This document shows, one piece after another, positions 1-6,143 of a DNA stretch of 6,143 nt. The position numbers and the translations under genes are program-made. This DNA comes from an uncultured Pelagibacteraceae bacterium (GTDB taxonomy: Bacteria > Pseudomonadota > Alphaproteobacteria > Pelagibacterales > Pelagibacteraceae). The first letter of the stretch is position 1; the number at the start of each line of letters is the position of its first letter. The notes under the pieces are model-generated. The model had not been told where the DNA came from. It was given only the letters and a program-made list of their open reading frames with translations, and made no database searches. Location of the stretch: positions 1-6,143 of the forward strand of contig CACAWM010000029.1 in the NCBI GenBank assembly GCA_902536205.1, in the 5' to 3' direction.

Positions 1-129
1 TTCCTTTTCGATATCATTTAATTTTTCTTTATTGGATATCTTAGATTTTTTAATTTCTAAAATTGTGATCTTATCAAACAATTCTCCTGCTGAAATTTCT
101 GCCAATATTTTGTCAATTTTTTTGTTCAT
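1..129 (-). CDS. DUF6165-like protein, N-terminal part (cut by window edge)
   Basis: An uninterrupted reading frame starts at the ATG read from 129-127 and runs off the left edge after 43 codons. The N-terminus contains the stretch ISAGELFDKITILEIK (about residues 12-27), followed by a lysine/glutamate-rich helix. As I recall it, this SxGELxDKITILEIK signature is the hallmark of DUF6165, a small family often found beside glycosyltransferases in lipopolysaccharide or surface-glycan loci; its biochemical function is unknown to me. The neighbour on the other side of a 46-base divergent gap is a family 9 glycosyltransferase, which fits that context. No Shine-Dalgarno sequence precedes the start. 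The gene is incomplete, so its length and C-terminus cannot be judged. The family call rests on one recalled motif and is moderately confident. Confidence 0.72.
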   Translation of the reverse strand, partial: MNKKIDKILAEISAGELFDKITILEIKKSKISNKEKLNDIEKE

Positions 130-133
130 AATA

Positions 134-186
134 ATATTTGACTATAACACTCTTTAATTATACTCGGAATTAATAATGTCAAATAT
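134..186. promoter_or_regulatory. Candidate overlapping divergent promoters with 9-bp inverted repeat
   Basis: The gap between the DUF6165-like gene and the glycosyltransferase contains a perfect inverted repeat, ATATTTGAC at 134-142 and GTCAAATAT at 178-186. Each arm supplies a -35-like hexamer. On plus, TTGACT (138-143) is followed after 15 bases by TATACT (159-164). On minus, TTGACA (182-177) is followed after 14 bases by TATAAT (162-157). The two -10 elements therefore overlap, and the right arm covers the start codon of the plus-strand gene. Both spacers are shorter than the usual 16-18, so the assignment is tentative. If correct, the two promoters would compete for polymerase. The right-hand gene's only Shine-Dalgarno-like bases (CGGAA, 165-169) would lie upstream of the predicted transcript start, which argues for caution. 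Confidence 0.3.
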
Positions 187-1108
187 ATTAATAATTAAAC
201 ATGGTTCGTTAGGGGATTTAATTCAAGCTAATGGCGCAATTAAAGATATTAAAAACTTTTATCCTAATAGAAAAGTTTTTTTACTTACAACACAACCTTA
301 TTCAATTTTTATGTCTGAGTGTCCTGATTTAGATGGAGTATTGATTGATAAAAGATTGCCTAGATGGAATTTTTTTTATTTAAACAATTTAAAAAAAACT
401 TTAGCTAAATATGATTTTTCAAAAGTATTTGATTTGCAAAATTCTAGTAGAACTAAGTTTTATAAAAGATTTATAATTAAAAATGCTGAATGGTCGTCAA
501 CTGAAACAGTTTTAGATCCAGGTCAGAAGAAAAGTGATTTTGATAATGAGCCTGTTCTAGATAGAATGGAAATTCAACTAAAAAAAAGCGGTATAGAAAC
601 TGAATTTACGAAAAATATTGATTTGAGTTGGGCAACTGAAAATATTTCTCGTTTAGTTCAACAATATACAAATAGAGAGTATATTCTTTTATTTCCTTTT
701 TGCTCCTCTAAGCTAGTAAATAAAAAATGGCCTTATTACAAAGAACTAATTCAAAGATTAAAACAAGAATTTAAAAATAAGTATTCGATTCTTCTTGCAC
801 CAGGTCCAAATGAAGTTAATGAAGCTAATCAATTAAATGCTAAAGTTATTTTAGAAAACAATGAACCTTTAAACTTAAAAAAATTAGTATCACTAATATA
901 TGGTGCAAAATTTATTATTTCAAATGATACCGGTCCAGCACATATTGCATCTCATCTAGATAAAAAAGGATTAGTTTTATTTGGTAGCCATACCTCAGCT
1001 AAAAAAGTGAGTATTGAAAATTTTAATTTTAAAGCTATTTCTGTCAAAAATTTAAATGATTTAAATGTTGATAGTGTTTTAGAAGAGATAAAGGCTAAAT
1101 TAGACTAA
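176..1108 (+). CDS. Glycosyltransferase family 9 (heptosyltransferase-like)
   Basis: This 310-residue protein has the GT9 layout. The N-terminal Rossmann half begins with the nucleotide-sugar-transferase signature HGSLGDLIQ (residues 9-17). The C-terminal half carries KKWPYYKELIQRL (183-195), the conserved NDTGPAH segment (250-256) and an LFGSHTS loop (268-274). Family members transfer heptose or related sugars from an ADP-sugar to lipopolysaccharide inner core at the cytoplasmic face of the inner membrane. Length is slightly below the 320-350 residues typical of WaaC/WaaF. I cannot tell which acceptor or sugar is used: proteins of this motif set in marine bacteria are often only generically heptosyltransferase-like. 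The ATG at 176 places the GSLGD motif at the usual distance from the N-terminus, so the start is probably right. The gene faces the family 4 glycosyltransferase and overlaps its 3' end by 14 bases. The DUF6165-like gene upstream is divergent. Confidence 0.88.
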   Translation: MSNILIIKHGSLGDLIQANGAIKDIKNFYPNRKVFLLTTQPYSIFMSECPDLDGVLIDKRLPRWNFFYLNNLKKTLAKYDFSKVFDLQNSSRTKFYKRFIIKNAEWSSTETVLDPGQKKSDFDNEPVLDRMEIQLKKSGIETEFTKNIDLSWATENISRLVQQYTNREYILLFPFCSSKLVNKKWPYYKELIQRLKQEFKNKYSILLAPGPNEVNEANQLNAKVILENNEPLNLKKLVSLIYGAKFIISNDTGPAHIASHLDKKGLVLFGSHTSAKKVSIENFNFKAISVKNLNDLNVDSVLEEIKAKLD

Positions 1109-2180
1109 TATATTTTTTTACAATTTTATCCCAACTAAAATCTTTTGAAAATTCTAAAGCATTAGCTCCCAGCTTTAAAAAATGATCGTTAGCTAGAGTT
1201 TTTAACAAAGTATCGTAAATTGCATTTAAATCATTGCCATTACAAAGATAACCAGTTTGTCCACTTTTAATAGCATCACCCTCTCCACCATAAATTCCAC
1301 CAATGGACGGTTTGCCATATGAGGCAGCCTCAATATAAGTAATGCCAAATCCCTCAACAGATTTTTTATAAATTACTGAAGGCATAACAAATACATTTGA
1401 CTGTTCTAATAAAGCTACTTTTTCCTGTTCAGTAGATTTGAATATAAAATCAACACTCTTTTCTAATCCAAGTGTTTTTCTAAGTTTTAATAGATTATTT
1501 CCTTCATCACCATCACCTATCGAGACATATTTAAGGTTTGGATATTTAGGAAGAAGATTTTTAACTGTCATCATTACATTGTGATGACTTTTTCTTCCAT
1601 CTAATCTTGAAATAGTAATTAACTTTGGTGAAGCATTTCCATATATTTTTTTTGCAAATTCTTTTGCTTCCTCATTTATAGGAATAGGATAATTGCAACC
1701 TGGATTGATTACAGTGACATTTTTAACACCCAACTTCATTGCAAACTCTTTTGTAAATTTTGAATTAGCTATAACGTGGTCTGCCTTAGCCAGGGCAGTT
1801 AAAACTCTTTTATTTAATGACGACCCAACTGGATGGTTAATTTCCTTTGAGTGAATTAAGCAAAATGATTTAGTTCTTTTCAATAAATTCTTTTCAATAT
1901 TTTCAATACTTTTCCAATGATCAAAAAAAGAGGCTCTTACCTCGTTAGATGTTAAAAATTCCTTTACTAGGTTTGCTTTTCTATATTTACGAAAAATTTT
2001 TAAACCTGATACTCTATGTATATTTAATTTTGAATTTTGATCATAATTTTCATCTTCATCTTGAGTTTCCGCAAAAACTTTTACTGGTCCATGATTTAAC
2101 AATGCATTTGATAGCCCTTCCATGAGGTTCTGCATACCACCGATTTCAGGAGGGAAATTTCTTGTGACAACTAAAAACAT
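1095..2180 (-). CDS. Glycosyltransferase family 4 (GT-B fold)
   Basis: This 361-residue protein has both Rossmann lobes of a retaining GT4 enzyme. The N-terminal acceptor lobe opens with TRNFPPEIGGMQ (6-17), the glycine-rich loop typical of the family. The nucleotide-sugar lobe starts near 187 with TISRLDGRKSH (189-199), whose Arg192 and Lys197 match the residues that contact the donor phosphates. The EX7E signature follows as EGFGITYIE (276-284; Glu276 and Glu284), then GKP (289-291) and TGYL (309-312). Members make lipopolysaccharide, capsule or glycolipid sugars at the cytoplasmic membrane; donor and acceptor cannot be read from the sequence. The length is normal for the family. Its ATG shares one base with the stop codon of the upstream thioredoxin-like gene (TAATG), so the two are probably co-transcribed and translationally coupled. 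Its 3' end runs 14 bases into the oppositely transcribed GT9 gene, leaving no space for a terminator. Confidence 0.9.
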   Translation of the reverse strand: MFLVVTRNFPPEIGGMQNLMEGLSNALLNHGPVKVFAETQDEDENYDQNSKLNIHRVSGLKIFRKYRKANLVKEFLTSNEVRASFFDHWKSIENIEKNLLKRTKSFCLIHSKEINHPVGSSLNKRVLTALAKADHVIANSKFTKEFAMKLGVKNVTVINPGCNYPIPINEEAKEFAKKIYGNASPKLITISRLDGRKSHHNVMMTVKNLLPKYPNLKYVSIGDGDEGNNLLKLRKTLGLEKSVDFIFKSTEQEKVALLEQSNVFVMPSVIYKKSVEGFGITYIEAASYGKPSIGGIYGGEGDAIKSGQTGYLCNGNDLNAIYDTLLKTLANDHFLKLGANALEFSKDFSWDKIVKKYISLI

Positions 2181-2737
2181 TAATTAAACCACTTGATGTT
2201 ACATCCCATACTTGGAATTTGTTGATCAGGACCTCTCTGGGTTTGTGCAACTATTTTCATAGCTATTTTTAAATCACTGTCTCCATTATTTATTGGTTTT
2301 AAATCTTTTAACTGTTTAAATCTGCCTCTGTATTGAAGTTTTAAATCTTGATTGTAACCAAAAAAATCAGGCGTACATACTGCACCATATTTTTTAGCAA
2401 TTTCTTGTGTTTCATCAAATAAATAGTTTATCTCACCAAAATTATTGTTATCAGCAAATTTGATCATGTTTTCGAATGAGTCTTCAGGATAATTTTTTGT
2501 ATCATTTGACATGATAGCTACAGAGTTAATTCCATCTTTTTTAAGTTCATTACAATCTTTAGCCAAATCTTTAATAATTGCTTTTACATAAGGACAATGA
2601 TTGCAGATAAACATTATGAGCGTAGCTTTTTCACCCTTAATATCGTTTAAAGTTATTAATTTATTTTTGATTGATTTTAGTTTGAAATCCTCAGCTTTTT
2701 TTCCAAAATCGCAAACTGGGGTTTTAGTTAGAGCCAT
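2180..2737 (-). CDS. Thioredoxin-fold AhpC/TSA-like redox protein
   Basis: This 185-residue protein is cytoplasmic, with no signal peptide. It has the thioredoxin fold layout: a leader strand (FKLKSIKNKLITLNDIKG), a core strand ending at the active-site motif CNHCPYVK (Cys45 and Cys48), and the cis-proline segment VCTPDFF (Cys121, Pro123). It ends with PSMGCNIKW (Cys179), a tail characteristic of the peroxiredoxin-like subgroup of AhpC/TSA thioredoxin-family proteins. The CxxC-type pair suggests thiol-disulfide exchange or peroxide reduction; the physiological substrate is not known. Cys121 and Cys179 could form an additional disulfide, which is inference. A TATAAT hexamer lies five bases before the ATG and there is no Shine-Dalgarno, so the message may be leaderless. 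The gene is followed by the GT4 gene through a one-base stop/start overlap, an unusual functional pairing that may reflect nothing more than genome compaction. Confidence 0.85.
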   Translation of the reverse strand: MALTKTPVCDFGKKAEDFKLKSIKNKLITLNDIKGEKATLIMFICNHCPYVKAIIKDLAKDCNELKKDGINSVAIMSNDTKNYPEDSFENMIKFADNNNFGEINYLFDETQEIAKKYGAVCTPDFFGYNQDLKLQYRGRFKQLKDLKPINNGDSDLKIAMKIVAQTQRGPDQQIPSMGCNIKWFN

Positions 2738-2768
2738 AATGTATTATAAATTATTTAATAATACATTA
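2737..2768. promoter_or_regulatory. 11-bp inverted repeat with back-to-back -10 elements
   Basis: The divergent gap contains TAATGTATTAT (2737-2747) and its exact reverse complement ATAATACATTA (2758-2768), separated by 10 bases. Each arm provides a -10-like hexamer pointing outward. TATAAT on minus (2748-2743) sits five bases before the thioredoxin-like ATG. AATAAT on plus (2757-2762) sits 16 bases before the carbonic-anhydrase-like ATG. No good -35 hexamer is visible for either. The symmetry fits a dimeric regulator site or a pair of mirrored core promoters. The arms contain only one G:C pair each, so chance in such A/T-rich DNA cannot be excluded. Confidence 0.4.
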
Positions 2769-2778
2769 CAGCAATTTT

Positions 2779-3282
2779 ATGATTTATGATTTTGAAGGAC
2801 AAACTCCAAAAATAGATCCAGGTAGTTGGGTAGCACCTAATTCTGTTATCATCGGCAGGGTAGAACTTAAAAAAAATTCTAACATTTGGTTTAATACAAC
2901 TTTAAGAGGAGATCTTGAACCAATTATCATTGGGGAAAATTCAAATGTTCAGGACGGAAGCGTTATTCATACGGACCCAGGTTGTCCAACTATAGTTGGA
3001 AAAGGAGTTACCATTGGACATATGGTAATGCTTCATGGCTGTGAAATTGCTGATGATTGTTTAATTGGAATTGGCTCAACTATATTGAATAAAACTAAAA
3101 TTGGAAAAAATTGTATTATCGGTGCTAATGCACTTGTTACAGAAAATAAAGTTATACCTGAAAGATCATTGGTTCTTGGTAGTCCCGGTAAAGTAGTCAG
3201 ACAAGTTACTGACGAAGAAATAGAACACATTAAAGAAAATGCTAGAGACTATGTCGAAAATTTTAAAAAATATAAGAAATAG
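2779..3282 (+). CDS. Gamma-class carbonic anhydrase-like protein (YrdA/CaiE-type)
   Basis: This 167-residue protein is a left-handed beta-helix protein of hexapeptide repeats, from VIIGRVEL (23-30) through IGKNCIIGANALV (108-120), followed by a C-terminal helix (about 144-166). The N-terminus with FEGQTPKIDPGSWVAPNS, the WFNTTLRGD segment (Arg43, Asp45) and NVQDGSVIH (Gln58, His64) are typical of the gamma carbonic anhydrase family. His64, His81 and His86 occur in the HxnHxxxxH arrangement that binds the metal at the trimer interface. The acidic proton-shuttle loop of the archaeal enzyme Cam is absent, as in the CamH/YrdA group, so activity as a carbonic anhydrase is possible but not certain. 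Length matches that group. The ATG at 2779 gives the usual MIY-FEG start. No Shine-Dalgarno is visible. The last 32 bases overlap the start of the next gene, suggesting co-transcription. Confidence 0.9.
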   Translation: MIYDFEGQTPKIDPGSWVAPNSVIIGRVELKKNSNIWFNTTLRGDLEPIIIGENSNVQDGSVIHTDPGCPTIVGKGVTIGHMVMLHGCEIADDCLIGIGSTILNKTKIGKNCIIGANALVTENKVIPERSLVLGSPGKVVRQVTDEEIEHIKENARDYVENFKKYKK

Positions 3283-4060
3283 TTTTTTTTTAATTGCTAT
3301 TTTATGTTTAGGCTTCTCAAATCTGGAAGCCAAAAATAGTAAAGATGTTTCTAATACTGAGGTGAAAAAGAAAACTACCTCTCATAAAAAGAAATATTCT
3401 CTAAATTTAGTTAACAGTAAAGATGGTCATCCTGTGAGATCTGGAAAAAAATCTTACAGATTTGAAGTCAGATTAGGTGACTGCGGTAAAGATAGTGGTC
3501 ATGATGATTGTAAAAAAGATAGACAAAGAACTGAGCTACAATTCAAAAAACATCAAATGGGTAAAAAAGATCATTGGTATTCCGCATCTATCTATTTGCC
3601 AAATGACTATCAATCAGTAGCTCCAGTTAGAACTACTTTTGCTCAACTCTATGAAAAAGGTTGGAAACCCATTCTTATGGTGACAGATAGAAGTGGAGAT
3701 TGGTTAGAGGTTGGAAGAATGTGGAGTGGTGAGTATGTTGAGATGAAAAAAGCAATAAAGATAAATGACATGAAGGGTAAATGGACAGACGTACTTATCA
3801 ATGCTCGATATTCAAGAGAGGAAACTGGTTTCATGAAGGTTTGGATTAATAATAAATTAGTATTAAATTCAGAGAATATAAAAAACATTACGCCATATAC
3901 CAAAAGAGGTGTTGGATTAGATTTTGGAATTTATCAAACATTTGTCAGCGGTTGGAAGAGGGAACATGGAGATAAACCGTATCCAAATATGATTGTTTAC
4001 TTTGATGAAGTTAATTTAGGTTCTACAAAAGAAAAAGTAACAAAAAACCTAGGGAACTAA
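3251..4060 (+). CDS. Secreted polysaccharide-lyase-like protein (heparin/alginate lyase fold)
   Basis: I place the start at ATG 3251, giving 269 residues; an in-frame ATG at 3239 would add four. The later start gives a clean Sec signal peptide: basic MSKILKNIRN, a hydrophobic core (11-22), then NLEA with likely cleavage after Ala27. AGAG at 3244-3247 is a weak ribosome site. A lysine-rich linker (38-49) leads to a beta-rich domain resembling the heparin lyase I/polysaccharide lyase family (Pfam PF14099 as I recall): KSYRFEVRLGD (67-77), DRQRTELQ (90-97), WYSASIYLP (109-117), FAQ (130-132), GKWTD (176-180), FGIYQ (225-229) and VYFDEV (249-254). The Arg-x-Glu-Leu, Gln and Tyr positions parallel the catalytic Arg, Gln and Tyr of jelly-roll alginate lyases; that comparison is inference. 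Cys78 and Cys87 may form a disulfide. A periplasmic or extracellular glycan-cleaving or glycan-binding role is likely, substrate unknown. It overlaps its upstream neighbour by 32 bases and the PNPOx-like gene by 12. Confidence 0.75.
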   Translation: MSKILKNIRNSFFLIAILCLGFSNLEAKNSKDVSNTEVKKKTTSHKKKYSLNLVNSKDGHPVRSGKKSYRFEVRLGDCGKDSGHDDCKKDRQRTELQFKKHQMGKKDHWYSASIYLPNDYQSVAPVRTTFAQLYEKGWKPILMVTDRSGDWLEVGRMWSGEYVEMKKAIKINDMKGKWTDVLINARYSREETGFMKVWINNKLVLNSENIKNITPYTKRGVGLDFGIYQTFVSGWKREHGDKPYPNMIVYFDEVNLGSTKEKVTKNLGN

Positions 4061-4657
4061 CCAAGTAAATTTTTTAGACTCACTCAAATCAATTAAAGCT
4101 CTTCGATGACCTTTAGCTGCTAAATAAAGCCACTCAATACTTTTAATTTTACATCTAATTACACAAAAGTTTTTATAACCAGCTTCGCTTTCATCTTTTG
4201 TATAATCAAAGTTATCGAATTTATTATCTAAACCTGATGTTGGTTTTTCAGACTCTGTCCCAGGTCCATTTGTAACTAAGTAACATTTTCTACTGATATG
4301 CCCTGTTTTTTCCCAAGACTCTTTTGTAATATCATTATTATAATTTACTTCGCACTCAGCTTTAACTCTAAGCTGTATTTTTTCCTCTTTACCATAAAAT
4401 AAAATTGAGCACTTGGGATTTTTTTTAATTTTTTCAATTTTTGAAGATCTAATATCACTATGATATTGGATAAACTTATTTTGTTGATCTGCTTTTCTTA
4501 AGACAACAACTCTACCATCGAGATCTTTATCATTACCACAGATAAATACAGGCGTTCTAAACTCAGAAGATCTATCTTTAACTGCTTTAGTTAAAAGGTC
4601 CCATATTTTTTTTTCTATCTCTTGTGAATCTTCGTAGTAACTTATTATTTCTGACAC
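4049..4657 (-). CDS. Pyridoxamine 5'-phosphate oxidase-like FMN-binding protein
   Basis: This 202-residue cytoplasmic protein has the FMN-binding split-barrel layout. GRVVVLRK (48-55) is followed by FIQYHSDIRSSK (62-73), a KIKKNP helix (77-82), the strand CSILFYGK (83-90) and QLRVKAECEV (95-104); these correspond to the FMN-contacting strands of PdxH. The C-terminal part, WLYLAAKGHRRAL (176-188) with the terminal WLVP, looks like the Alr4036-type branch of the superfamily and not the C-terminal dimerisation region of true PdxH. I therefore do not assign pdxH. The substrate is unknown; vitamin B6 or flavin-dependent reduction are both possible. The start is three bases after the stop codon of the dehydrogenase C-terminal remnant on the same strand, so the two probably once formed an operon. 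The 3' end overlaps the lyase-like gene tail to tail by 12 bases. Confidence 0.82.
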   Translation of the reverse strand: MSEIISYYEDSQEIEKKIWDLLTKAVKDRSSEFRTPVFICGNDKDLDGRVVVLRKADQQNKFIQYHSDIRSSKIEKIKKNPKCSILFYGKEEKIQLRVKAECEVNYNNDITKESWEKTGHISRKCYLVTNGPGTESEKPTSGLDNKFDNFDYTKDESEAGYKNFCVIRCKIKSIEWLYLAAKGHRRALIDLSESKKFTWLVP

Positions 4658-4660
4658 AAC

Positions 4661-4801
4661 TTATTTTCTAAATCTTTTAATTAAGCTTGAAGTATCCCAT
4701 CTTTGACCACCCATTTTTTGCACTTCAGCATAATATTCATCAATTATTTTTGTAATAGGTAAGGGTGAATTATTTTTTTTAGCTTCATCCATTGTCCACT
4801 T
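4661..4801 (-). pseudogene. C-terminal remnant of a 3-hydroxyisobutyrate dehydrogenase-like gene
   Basis: The minus strand reads KWTMDEAKKNNS, then LPITKIIDEYYAEVQ and finally MGGQRWDTSSLIKRFRK before a TAA at 4663-4661. LPxTxxxDxxYxxVQxMGGxRWDTSSL is the C-terminal signature of the beta-hydroxyacid (3-hydroxyisobutyrate/6-phosphogluconate-like) dehydrogenase family, where it ends a ~290-residue protein. Only the last ~45 residues are here. Upstream, this frame hits a stop after the Lys codon (4804-4802), and the sequence instead matches an MFS transporter. The N-terminal ~230 residues of a dehydrogenase of this family lie inverted at 5453-6143. An ATG exists at 4792, but a stand-alone 43-residue product lacking the NADP fold and catalytic lysine would be inactive. 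The PNPOx-like gene follows after three bases. The fragment's origin, real rearrangement or assembly chimera, is open. Confidence 0.8.
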
Positions 4802-5450
4802 TTAAAACATCTCTCCTTCTCCAACTTTTAATTTTAAGTTTTTTTTTGCCAGGATTAGGATCTGCCTCTCTTGAGTCTAGTTTTATCGACTTAATTGTAT
4901 TTAAAATTACAAAAGGCAAAAATATAATTATTAGTATTGCAATTCCTTGCCAGACAGTTCTCCAAGAGTAAATAAGGAAAAAATAAGTTATAAGAGCCGG
5001 TAAAATAAATTCTGCTGTAGATAAGCCAAACCAAACTGTACTTAAAGCCTTTCCTCTAGATCTTTCAAAAAATCTGGAAATGGTTGTCGTGGAAGTATGG
5101 CTCATTAAACCTTGTCCAGAAAATCTCATTAAGAAAATTCCAATCGCTAAAAAATAAATACTATTAATAAATGAAAAAAATAATGAAGAAGCAAATAATA
5201 ATAGAACTACAAATAATGAATAATTTAAAATTCTATAATCGTCTATTTTTTTTCCAACCCAAATAAGAAGCAAACTTGAAAAAATAGTTGCACTTGCATA
5301 GATACTGCCGAATTGACCATGAGTAATACTGAGTTCATTTCTTATCGGTGCGTTAAACAATCCCAAAAAAAAACTCTGTCCAAAACTAGAAAAAAATGTA
5401 AATATAAATCCAAATATAATTACTTTTTTATTTAAAGTGAGGTTAATCAT
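4785..5450 (-). CDS. MFS transporter, N-terminal half only (truncated)
   Basis: The 221-residue product contains six hydrophobic helices (about 10-32, 47-66, 76-95, 97-116, 138-161, 166-186), against the twelve of a normal ~400-residue major facilitator. Family features are GKKIDDYR after helix 2 (motif A, 66-73), MRFSGQGL in helix 4 (108-115) and RFFERSRGKA in the following cytoplasmic loop (126-135). The chain continues through the charged central loop to SWRRRDVLK (209-217), where full-length relatives pass to helix 7. It then ends after four unrelated residues at a stop generated by reading into the dehydrogenase remnant out of frame. The second half is absent from the window. The product is unlikely to transport alone, so this is probably a broken gene, or a chimera if the join is artificial. 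The substrate cannot be predicted. The start ATG is two bases from the divergent dehydrogenase ATG, and no Shine-Dalgarno is evident. Confidence 0.85.
   Translation of the reverse strand: MINLTLNKKVIIFGFIFTFFSSFGQSFFLGLFNAPIRNELSITHGQFGSIYASATIFSSLLLIWVGKKIDDYRILNYSLFVVLLLFASSLFFSFINSIYFLAIGIFLMRFSGQGLMSHTSTTTISRFFERSRGKALSTVWFGLSTAEFILPALITYFFLIYSWRTVWQGIAILIIIFLPFVILNTIKSIKLDSREADPNPGKKKLKIKSWRRRDVLKVDNG
4793..4812. other. Rearrangement junction between dehydrogenase tail and MFS transporter
   Basis: On the minus strand the transporter reads SWRRRDVLK, the expected cytoplasmic loop after helix 6. Within a few bases the dehydrogenase tail starts as KWTMDEAKK in another frame. The bases at the join are GTTTTAAAAGTGG. 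Dehydrogenases of this family commonly have a (K/R)DLK motif immediately before this point, and the transporter has RDVLK. A short A/T-rich microhomology around TTAAA could therefore have guided the join. Removing one A from the four-A run would fuse both frames, so an indel is also conceivable. The exact breakpoint cannot be fixed from this window alone. Confidence 0.65.
5415..5442 (+). promoter_or_regulatory. Candidate -10 and Shine-Dalgarno for the divergent dehydrogenase gene
   Basis: A perfect TATAAT lies at 5415-5420, and GAGG at 5439-5442 sits ten bases before the ATG at 5453. Both lie inside the N-terminal coding region of the MFS gene on the other strand, which is where they must be because the two starts are two bases apart. 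No convincing -35 hexamer is visible. The GAGG is one of the better ribosome-binding matches in this window and supports the chosen start. Confidence 0.4.
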
Positions 5451-5452
5451 TA

Positions 5453-6143
5453 ATGAGTTGTAAAGTTTCTTTCATAGGTCTTGGTGTAATGGGTTATCCC
5501 ATGGCTGGTTATATATCAAAAGCTGGTCACAATGTAACCGTTTATAATCGTACGAAAGTTAAAGCCGAAAAGTGGGCGAAAGAATATAAAGGTAATGTTG
5601 CTGATACTCCGATGGATGCTACTAAAGATAGTGACTTTATTTTTACATGTGTTGGAAATGATAATGATTTAAGAGAAGTTACTTTAGGTGACAAAGGATT
5701 GTTTAAAACTGCAAAAAAAGGTTCAATCTACATAGATAATACTACTGCCTCAGCAAACATTGCGAGAGAGTTATATAAAGAAGCAAAAGCAAAAGGTTTT
5801 GATTTCTTAGATGCTCCGATTTCGGGTGGACAAGCTGGAGCAGAAGGTGGAATTTTAACTGTAATGGTTGGAGGAGACGAAGCTCCCTTTAAAAAAGCTG
5901 AACCAATTATTGATTGTTATAGTAAAAAAATAAAATTACTCGGACCATCTGGAAGTGGTCAATTAACTAAGATGGTTAATCAGATTTGTATTGCAGGCCT
6001 TGTTCAAGGTTTGTCAGAGGCAATTAACTTTGGAATGAATGCGGGTTTAAATATGCATGATGTAATTGAAGTAATTTCAAAAGGCGCGGCTCAATCATGG
6101 CAAATGGAAAATAGACATAAAACAATGATTGAAGATAAGTTTG
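5453..6143 (+). CDS. 3-hydroxyisobutyrate dehydrogenase-like NAD(P)-dependent oxidoreductase, N-terminal part (cut by window edge)
   Basis: Reading from the ATG at 5453, the frame stays open to the window end, giving 230 codons of an expected ~290. The Rossmann domain begins with FIGLGVMGYPMAGYI (8-22), the GxGxMGxxM dinucleotide signature, with VYNRT (30-34) after strand 2; Asn-Arg-Thr favours NADP, which is inference. The substrate-binding signature DAPISGGQAGAEGG (120-133) and the catalytic segment GQLTKMVNQ (169-177; Lys173, Asn176) are intact. Known members oxidise 3-hydroxyisobutyrate, tartronate semialdehyde or gamma-hydroxybutyrate, or reduce succinic or glyoxylic semialdehyde; which applies here is unclear. 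The window ends roughly 15 residues before the point at which the inverted C-terminal remnant at 4661-4801 would take over. The missing end may therefore be that remnant, or the gene may be complete beyond the edge. The divergent MFS start is two bases away. Confidence 0.9.
   Translation, partial: MSCKVSFIGLGVMGYPMAGYISKAGHNVTVYNRTKVKAEKWAKEYKGNVADTPMDATKDSDFIFTCVGNDNDLREVTLGDKGLFKTAKKGSIYIDNTTASANIARELYKEAKAKGFDFLDAPISGGQAGAEGGILTVMVGGDEAPFKKAEPIIDCYSKKIKLLGPSGSGQLTKMVNQICIAGLVQGLSEAINFGMNAGLNMHDVIEVISKGAAQSWQMENRHKTMIEDKF

Follow-up and report, generated by a model that had tools for sequence, protein, structure and literature searches.

Small chromosomal inversions arise by end joining or template switching, and filler bases occur also at real end-joined breaks. 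The genomes of the SAR11 lineage are compact and stable. Inverted joins are made in vitro as well: among the 475 chimeras mapped in a study of phi29 amplification (MDA; Lasken and Stockwell 2007, PMC1855051), 406 were inverted, with 337 of these inverted chimeras joining places less than 10 kb apart and 76.8% of the chimeras showing complementarity of at least 2 nt. By this account of its mapped chimeras, the inverted join of neighbouring segments was the commonest kind in that study, and hairpin self-priming and switching on the same displaced strand were excluded as major routes.

The window analysed here (the whole stretch of 6,143 nt) contains an inverted join at 4795–4798, where a dehydrogenase gene and the gene of an MFS transporter are both broken. 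As in the inverted chimeras described in that report (PMC1855051), two nearby segments (1.39 kb apart, thus within 10 kb) are joined in inverted orientation, and in 4 of the 8 loci aligned both parents have a short stretch in common close to the break. Unlike those chimeras, the join in the window carries 4 filler bases and was met in a contig instead of in reads. A small chromosomal inversion would yield the same local picture at one junction, whereas its reciprocal junction would fall outside the window and none of the relatives examined has it. The window holds just one of the two junctions able to decide between inversion and chimera. In our judgement, the break in both genes most probably reflects a chimera made in the laboratory or by assembly, not biology.

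Fragments of a dehydrogenase and an MFS transporter

The window has a G+C content of 29.9% and is matched by Pelagibacteraceae (SAR11) genomes. Specifically, the related locus L001 matched positions 1–4815 in one orientation (84.9% identity) and positions 4799–6143 in the opposite orientation (93.9% identity). On the plus strand, the ORF, its domains and the L001 alignment placed dehydrogenase residues 1–230 at 5453–6143 (coding 5453–6142), in agreement with an earlier note that had put the first ~230 residues there, and this frame was still open at the contig end. The 3′ end of a dehydrogenase gene was delimited by ORF frame and parental alignment on the minus strand at 4661–4794 (coding 4664–4792, stop codon 4661–4663), with the frame reading MDEAKKNNSPLPITKIIDEYYAEVQKMGGQRWDTSSLIKRFRK*. 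The earlier note had described this tail as ~45 residues at 4661–4801; a minus-strand tail is indeed present (43 residues), but its match stops at 4794.

Alignment of both pieces to one full-length homologue, which had been proposed as a check, returned residues 1–230 and 247–289 of the L001 protein, which is encoded by a single ORF (start at 6001, tail at 6739–6867). The expectation of a nearly full-length protein of ~290 residues with ~15 unaccounted for was borne out as to length (289 residues in L001), while the gap proved to be 16 residues (231–246). This gap corresponds to 45 nt in L001 (6692–6736): the contig ends at L001 position 6691 and the first kept base of the tail (window position 4794) is L001 position 6737, so that the missing 45 nt are exactly the interval from contig end to break position. 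Among the 12 closest loci, L001 ranked first for both pieces, with a DNA identity of 93.8% for the front and of 94.9% for the tail (the latter tied with L007).

The gene encodes a beta-hydroxyacid dehydrogenase, a group that includes 3-hydroxyisobutyrate dehydrogenase and 2-hydroxy-3-oxopropionate reductase, and the superfamily domains PF03446 and PF14833 were found in it. The L001 orthologue aligned nearly full-length to the solved enzymes 3CKY, 1VPD and 5JE8, and scored below the cut-off of all 16 NCBIfam models that it matched (best TIGR01505, 225.2 of 340.75 bits). The equivalog cut-off of the 3-hydroxyisobutyrate dehydrogenase model TIGR01692 (291.6 bits) was not reached by this full-length orthologue (193.9 bits), the window's own incomplete gene scoring 167.2 bits. 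Because no NCBIfam model was matched at cut-off, "3-hydroxyisobutyrate dehydrogenase" serves here as a label of the family and not of a substrate.

Between the two dehydrogenase pieces, the minus strand encodes the first 217 residues of an MFS transporter at 4799–5450 (ORF 4785–5450; PF07690 positions 2–191 of 347), the full-length gene encoding 405 aa in L001 and L002; half a transporter had been claimed at this place, rightly so. The MFS frame crosses the join, adds the residues VDNG and stops at 4785–4787, which results in a truncated product of 221 aa. Together, the MFS and dehydrogenase fragments indicate that both genes were cut by one join.

No internal stops were present in the dehydrogenase front, the dehydrogenase tail or the MFS piece. 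The dN/dS ratios, which chiefly record the time preceding the join, were 0.051 (0.015/0.29), 0.050 (0.010/0.19) and 0.085 (0.020/0.23), respectively, when compared with L001, and 0.044, 0.063 and 0.071 when compared with L002. Since neither gene shows signs of decay, the join should be either very recent or absent from the living genome.

Gene order in relatives and the left arm of the window

Gene order was surveyed in the best 80 of at least 594 loci encoding a relative, fetched with the dehydrogenase front; these loci were mostly from Pelagibacteraceae, with L075, L077, L079 and L080 bearing other names. In 79 of the 80 loci, the dehydrogenase tail follows the front within the same gene; the exception is L078, in which the contig ends at residue 200. 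The ORF measured 289–295 aa in 78 loci, a count that leaves out L078 (cut) and L075 (where the extrapolated start met a stop). The MFS gene was located in 76/80 loci, being cut by the contig end in L009, and was divergent from the dehydrogenase in 76/76, while it was not found in the four loci of the survey that bear other names. The gene of a PNPOx-type flavoprotein was located in 75/80 loci and lay on the dehydrogenase strand in 75/75, while it was not found in L015 and L077–L080 of the same survey. The ancestral order that the earlier note had assumed, PNPOx (minus), dehydrogenase (minus) and MFS (plus), is thus the order of the relatives, and the comparison with close relatives that it had asked for gave a divergent MFS and dehydrogenase pair followed by PNPOx. 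Given this gene order, a single inverted join at 4795–4798 explains the pieces, in line with its proposal that a segment with one end in each of the dehydrogenase and MFS genes was inverted. The starts of the MFS and dehydrogenase genes almost touch in close relatives (e.g., 5998 and 6001 in L001), and in L008 they are separated by 1.23 kb (4771–6001).

All six ORFs to the left of the join are intact. They encode a glycosyltransferase of family 9, a glycosyltransferase of family 4 (closest locus L001, 94.4%), a redoxin-like protein (L002, 88.5%), a gamma carbonic anhydrase-like hexapeptide protein (2779–3282), a polysaccharide-lyase-like protein (3239–4060; L007, 88.6%) and, on the minus strand at 4049–4657, the PNPOx-type flavoprotein (202 aa; PF12766; L005, 88.9%), whose gene comes next, downstream of the dehydrogenase gene, in relatives. 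The hexapeptide protein scored 193.3 bits against the gamma carbonic anhydrase model NF050158, i.e. below its cut-off of 250, and the polysaccharide-lyase-like gene was recovered (at least 70% coverage) in 5/12 close relatives. Positions 1–4794 of the window form a mosaic that is variable in gene content, and the closest relative differs by gene (L001, L002, L007 or L005). This mosaic had suggested a chimera between strains, a notion to which it lends no support because it lies within the left arm and because L001 is nearest to both dehydrogenase pieces (once tied).

Sequence of the join and searches for it elsewhere

The join was aligned with eight parental loci, consisting of L001, L002 and six loci picked from same-genus matches to the junction region. 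The dehydrogenase tail match ended at 4794 and the MFS match started at 4799, leaving 4 bases (4795–4798; TGGA on the minus strand) that fit neither parent. Read along the minus strand, the MFS sequence ending in GATGTTTTAAAAG is followed by TGGA and then by the dehydrogenase sequence beginning with CAATGGATGAAG. The two parental places lie on opposite strands, with a spacing of 1390 nt in all eight aligned loci. The stretch TTTAAAA of the MFS parent (4800–4806, minus strand) is also present in the dehydrogenase parent beside the break in 4/8 loci (L085–L088), such a shared stretch of at least 7 nt having a P of 0.017–0.019 for random pairs of places. The shared stretch measured 6 nt in L002 and in L089 (P of 0.05 in both), 5 nt in L090 (0.17) and 3 nt in L001 (0.90), and the same test in another register gave 4–6 nt with a P of 0.045–0.39 (L001, L002, L004, L006 and L007). 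Because 4 filler bases separate the two matches and only 3–6 nt are shared in L001, L002, L089 and L090, we take this apparent microhomology beside the join as weak evidence for a chimera.

In keeping with a chimera of the MDA type, no independent copy of the join was found. It was absent from the 80 surveyed loci; the junction region was matched by 147 of 169 genomes of L001's genus, and among the matches listed none spanned the junction (each lay on one side of it, within query positions 1–175 or 150–351); and the exact 28-base junction occurred in 0/90 loci. Likewise, the VDNG end was absent from all 240 homologues among the matches listed for the broken MFS (best 120 of 1581) and the dehydrogenase front (best 120 of 8000 scored). 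All 12 nearest relatives (L001–L012) carry AG- or AH- isolate codes, which we take to designate single amplified genomes.

When the best 120 MFS homologues were mapped onto L001, one inverted dehydrogenase–MFS join emerged, in the public protein P0107 (315 aa), in which dehydrogenase residues 1–135 are fused to the middle part of the MFS transporter from the opposite strand. No homologue of the dehydrogenase front (best 120 of 8000 scored) mapped with an MFS tail, the mapping of both 120-protein sets being one that may miss short foreign tails. In P0107, which is known only as a protein (source "ena", from a contig of 1066 bases), the two genes are thus again joined in inverted orientation, but at positions that differ from those in the window, and both places of its join have AATTTTAA in common in L086. 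Varied join positions in one locus would point to an in vitro process, the comparison resting on one protein among the 120 listed. The dehydrogenase entries P0138 and P0225 both stop at residue 248, two codons past the break in the window; either entry may be cut short by a contig end, a frameshift or a stop.

Origin of the inverted join

Relative to the order in relatives, the strand reads through PNPOx and the dehydrogenase tail, switches strand at 4795–4798 into the divergent MFS gene 1.39 kb off, and then runs back across the start of the MFS gene, the gap between the genes and the start of the dehydrogenase gene. The earlier note had held that an inversion and a fold-back chimera or misassembly would look alike locally; the local picture does fit both, and the evidence favours a chimera. 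We consider it probable that the join in this SAR11 (Pelagibacteraceae) sequence is a fold-back chimera that arose during amplification, library preparation or assembly. The strand switch would then have taken place in vitro, during strand-displacement amplification or library preparation, or would derive from the assembly of such reads, perhaps aided by a short complementary stretch. Past the contig end, the chimeric molecule would repeat the dehydrogenase tail and PNPOx in inverted orientation, and this second copy could be what made the contig stop 45 nt ahead of the predicted repeat, as an assembly may halt at a fold-back repeat, near where the contig stops. However, k-mer assembly should carry a fold-back contig beyond the repeat boundary and not leave it 45 nt short; a simple k-mer model does not account for this shortfall, which speaks against too tidy an account. 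Both genes would probably be whole and in their usual order in the living cell.

That a single SAR11 cell or strain underwent a real and very recent inversion of ~1.39 kb, with its ends in the dehydrogenase and MFS genes and both of them broken, seems unlikely by comparison. Such an inversion would also explain the pieces by a single inverted join, filler bases would be compatible with it, and the contig is consistent with it, as the missing dehydrogenase stretch would come next, followed by the MFS gene's second half. Yet the inversion was seen neither in the 80 loci nor in the matches listed from the 169 genomes of the genus. It would disrupt two genes kept by most of these relatives, yet the pieces of both genes show no decay, and it predicts no contig end, giving no reason for a stop 45 nt from the second junction. 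If true, it would offer a rare direct view of SAR11 rearrangement; we see only a small chance that a living SAR11 cell carries such a new 1.39-kb inversion, joined with filler bases beside a short match, as a snapshot of template switching or end joining.

An invertible segment that flips reversibly between inverted repeats (phase variation) is hardly credible. The BLAST arms overlap at 4799–4815 in 9/20 loci among the matches listed, as such repeats would have it; the 17-nt inverted repeat that this overlap suggested was discarded upon base-by-base reading, which revealed at most 7 nt common to the parents and hence no true repeat. Flanking inverted repeats were not found either, the 7 inverted pairs of 12–15 nt in 4400–6143 all lying clear of 4795–4798. 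Moreover, a flipped copy was seen in none of the 80 loci, flipping would link unrelated proteins, and no recombinase family was detected among the 8 window proteins scanned (Pfam, E ≤ 0.001). The idea that the pieces belong to independent paralogues, one decayed (minus strand) and the other separate and intact (plus strand), has the opposite strands of the two pieces in its favour and nothing more, and appears very improbable: the pieces are complementary without overlap, they share L001 as their first-ranking relative, and the tail sits at its native position adjoining PNPOx, as in relatives. As judged from these alignments, the best interpretation of the minus- and plus-strand pieces is that a single gene, and not a pair of paralogues, supplied both.

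The biological weight of the inverted join is small, and its value is one of quality control. The 221-aa truncated MFS transporter and the "split" dehydrogenase could be taken up as new variants by protein databases, which already contain P0107, where these genes are joined in inverted orientation at a different place.
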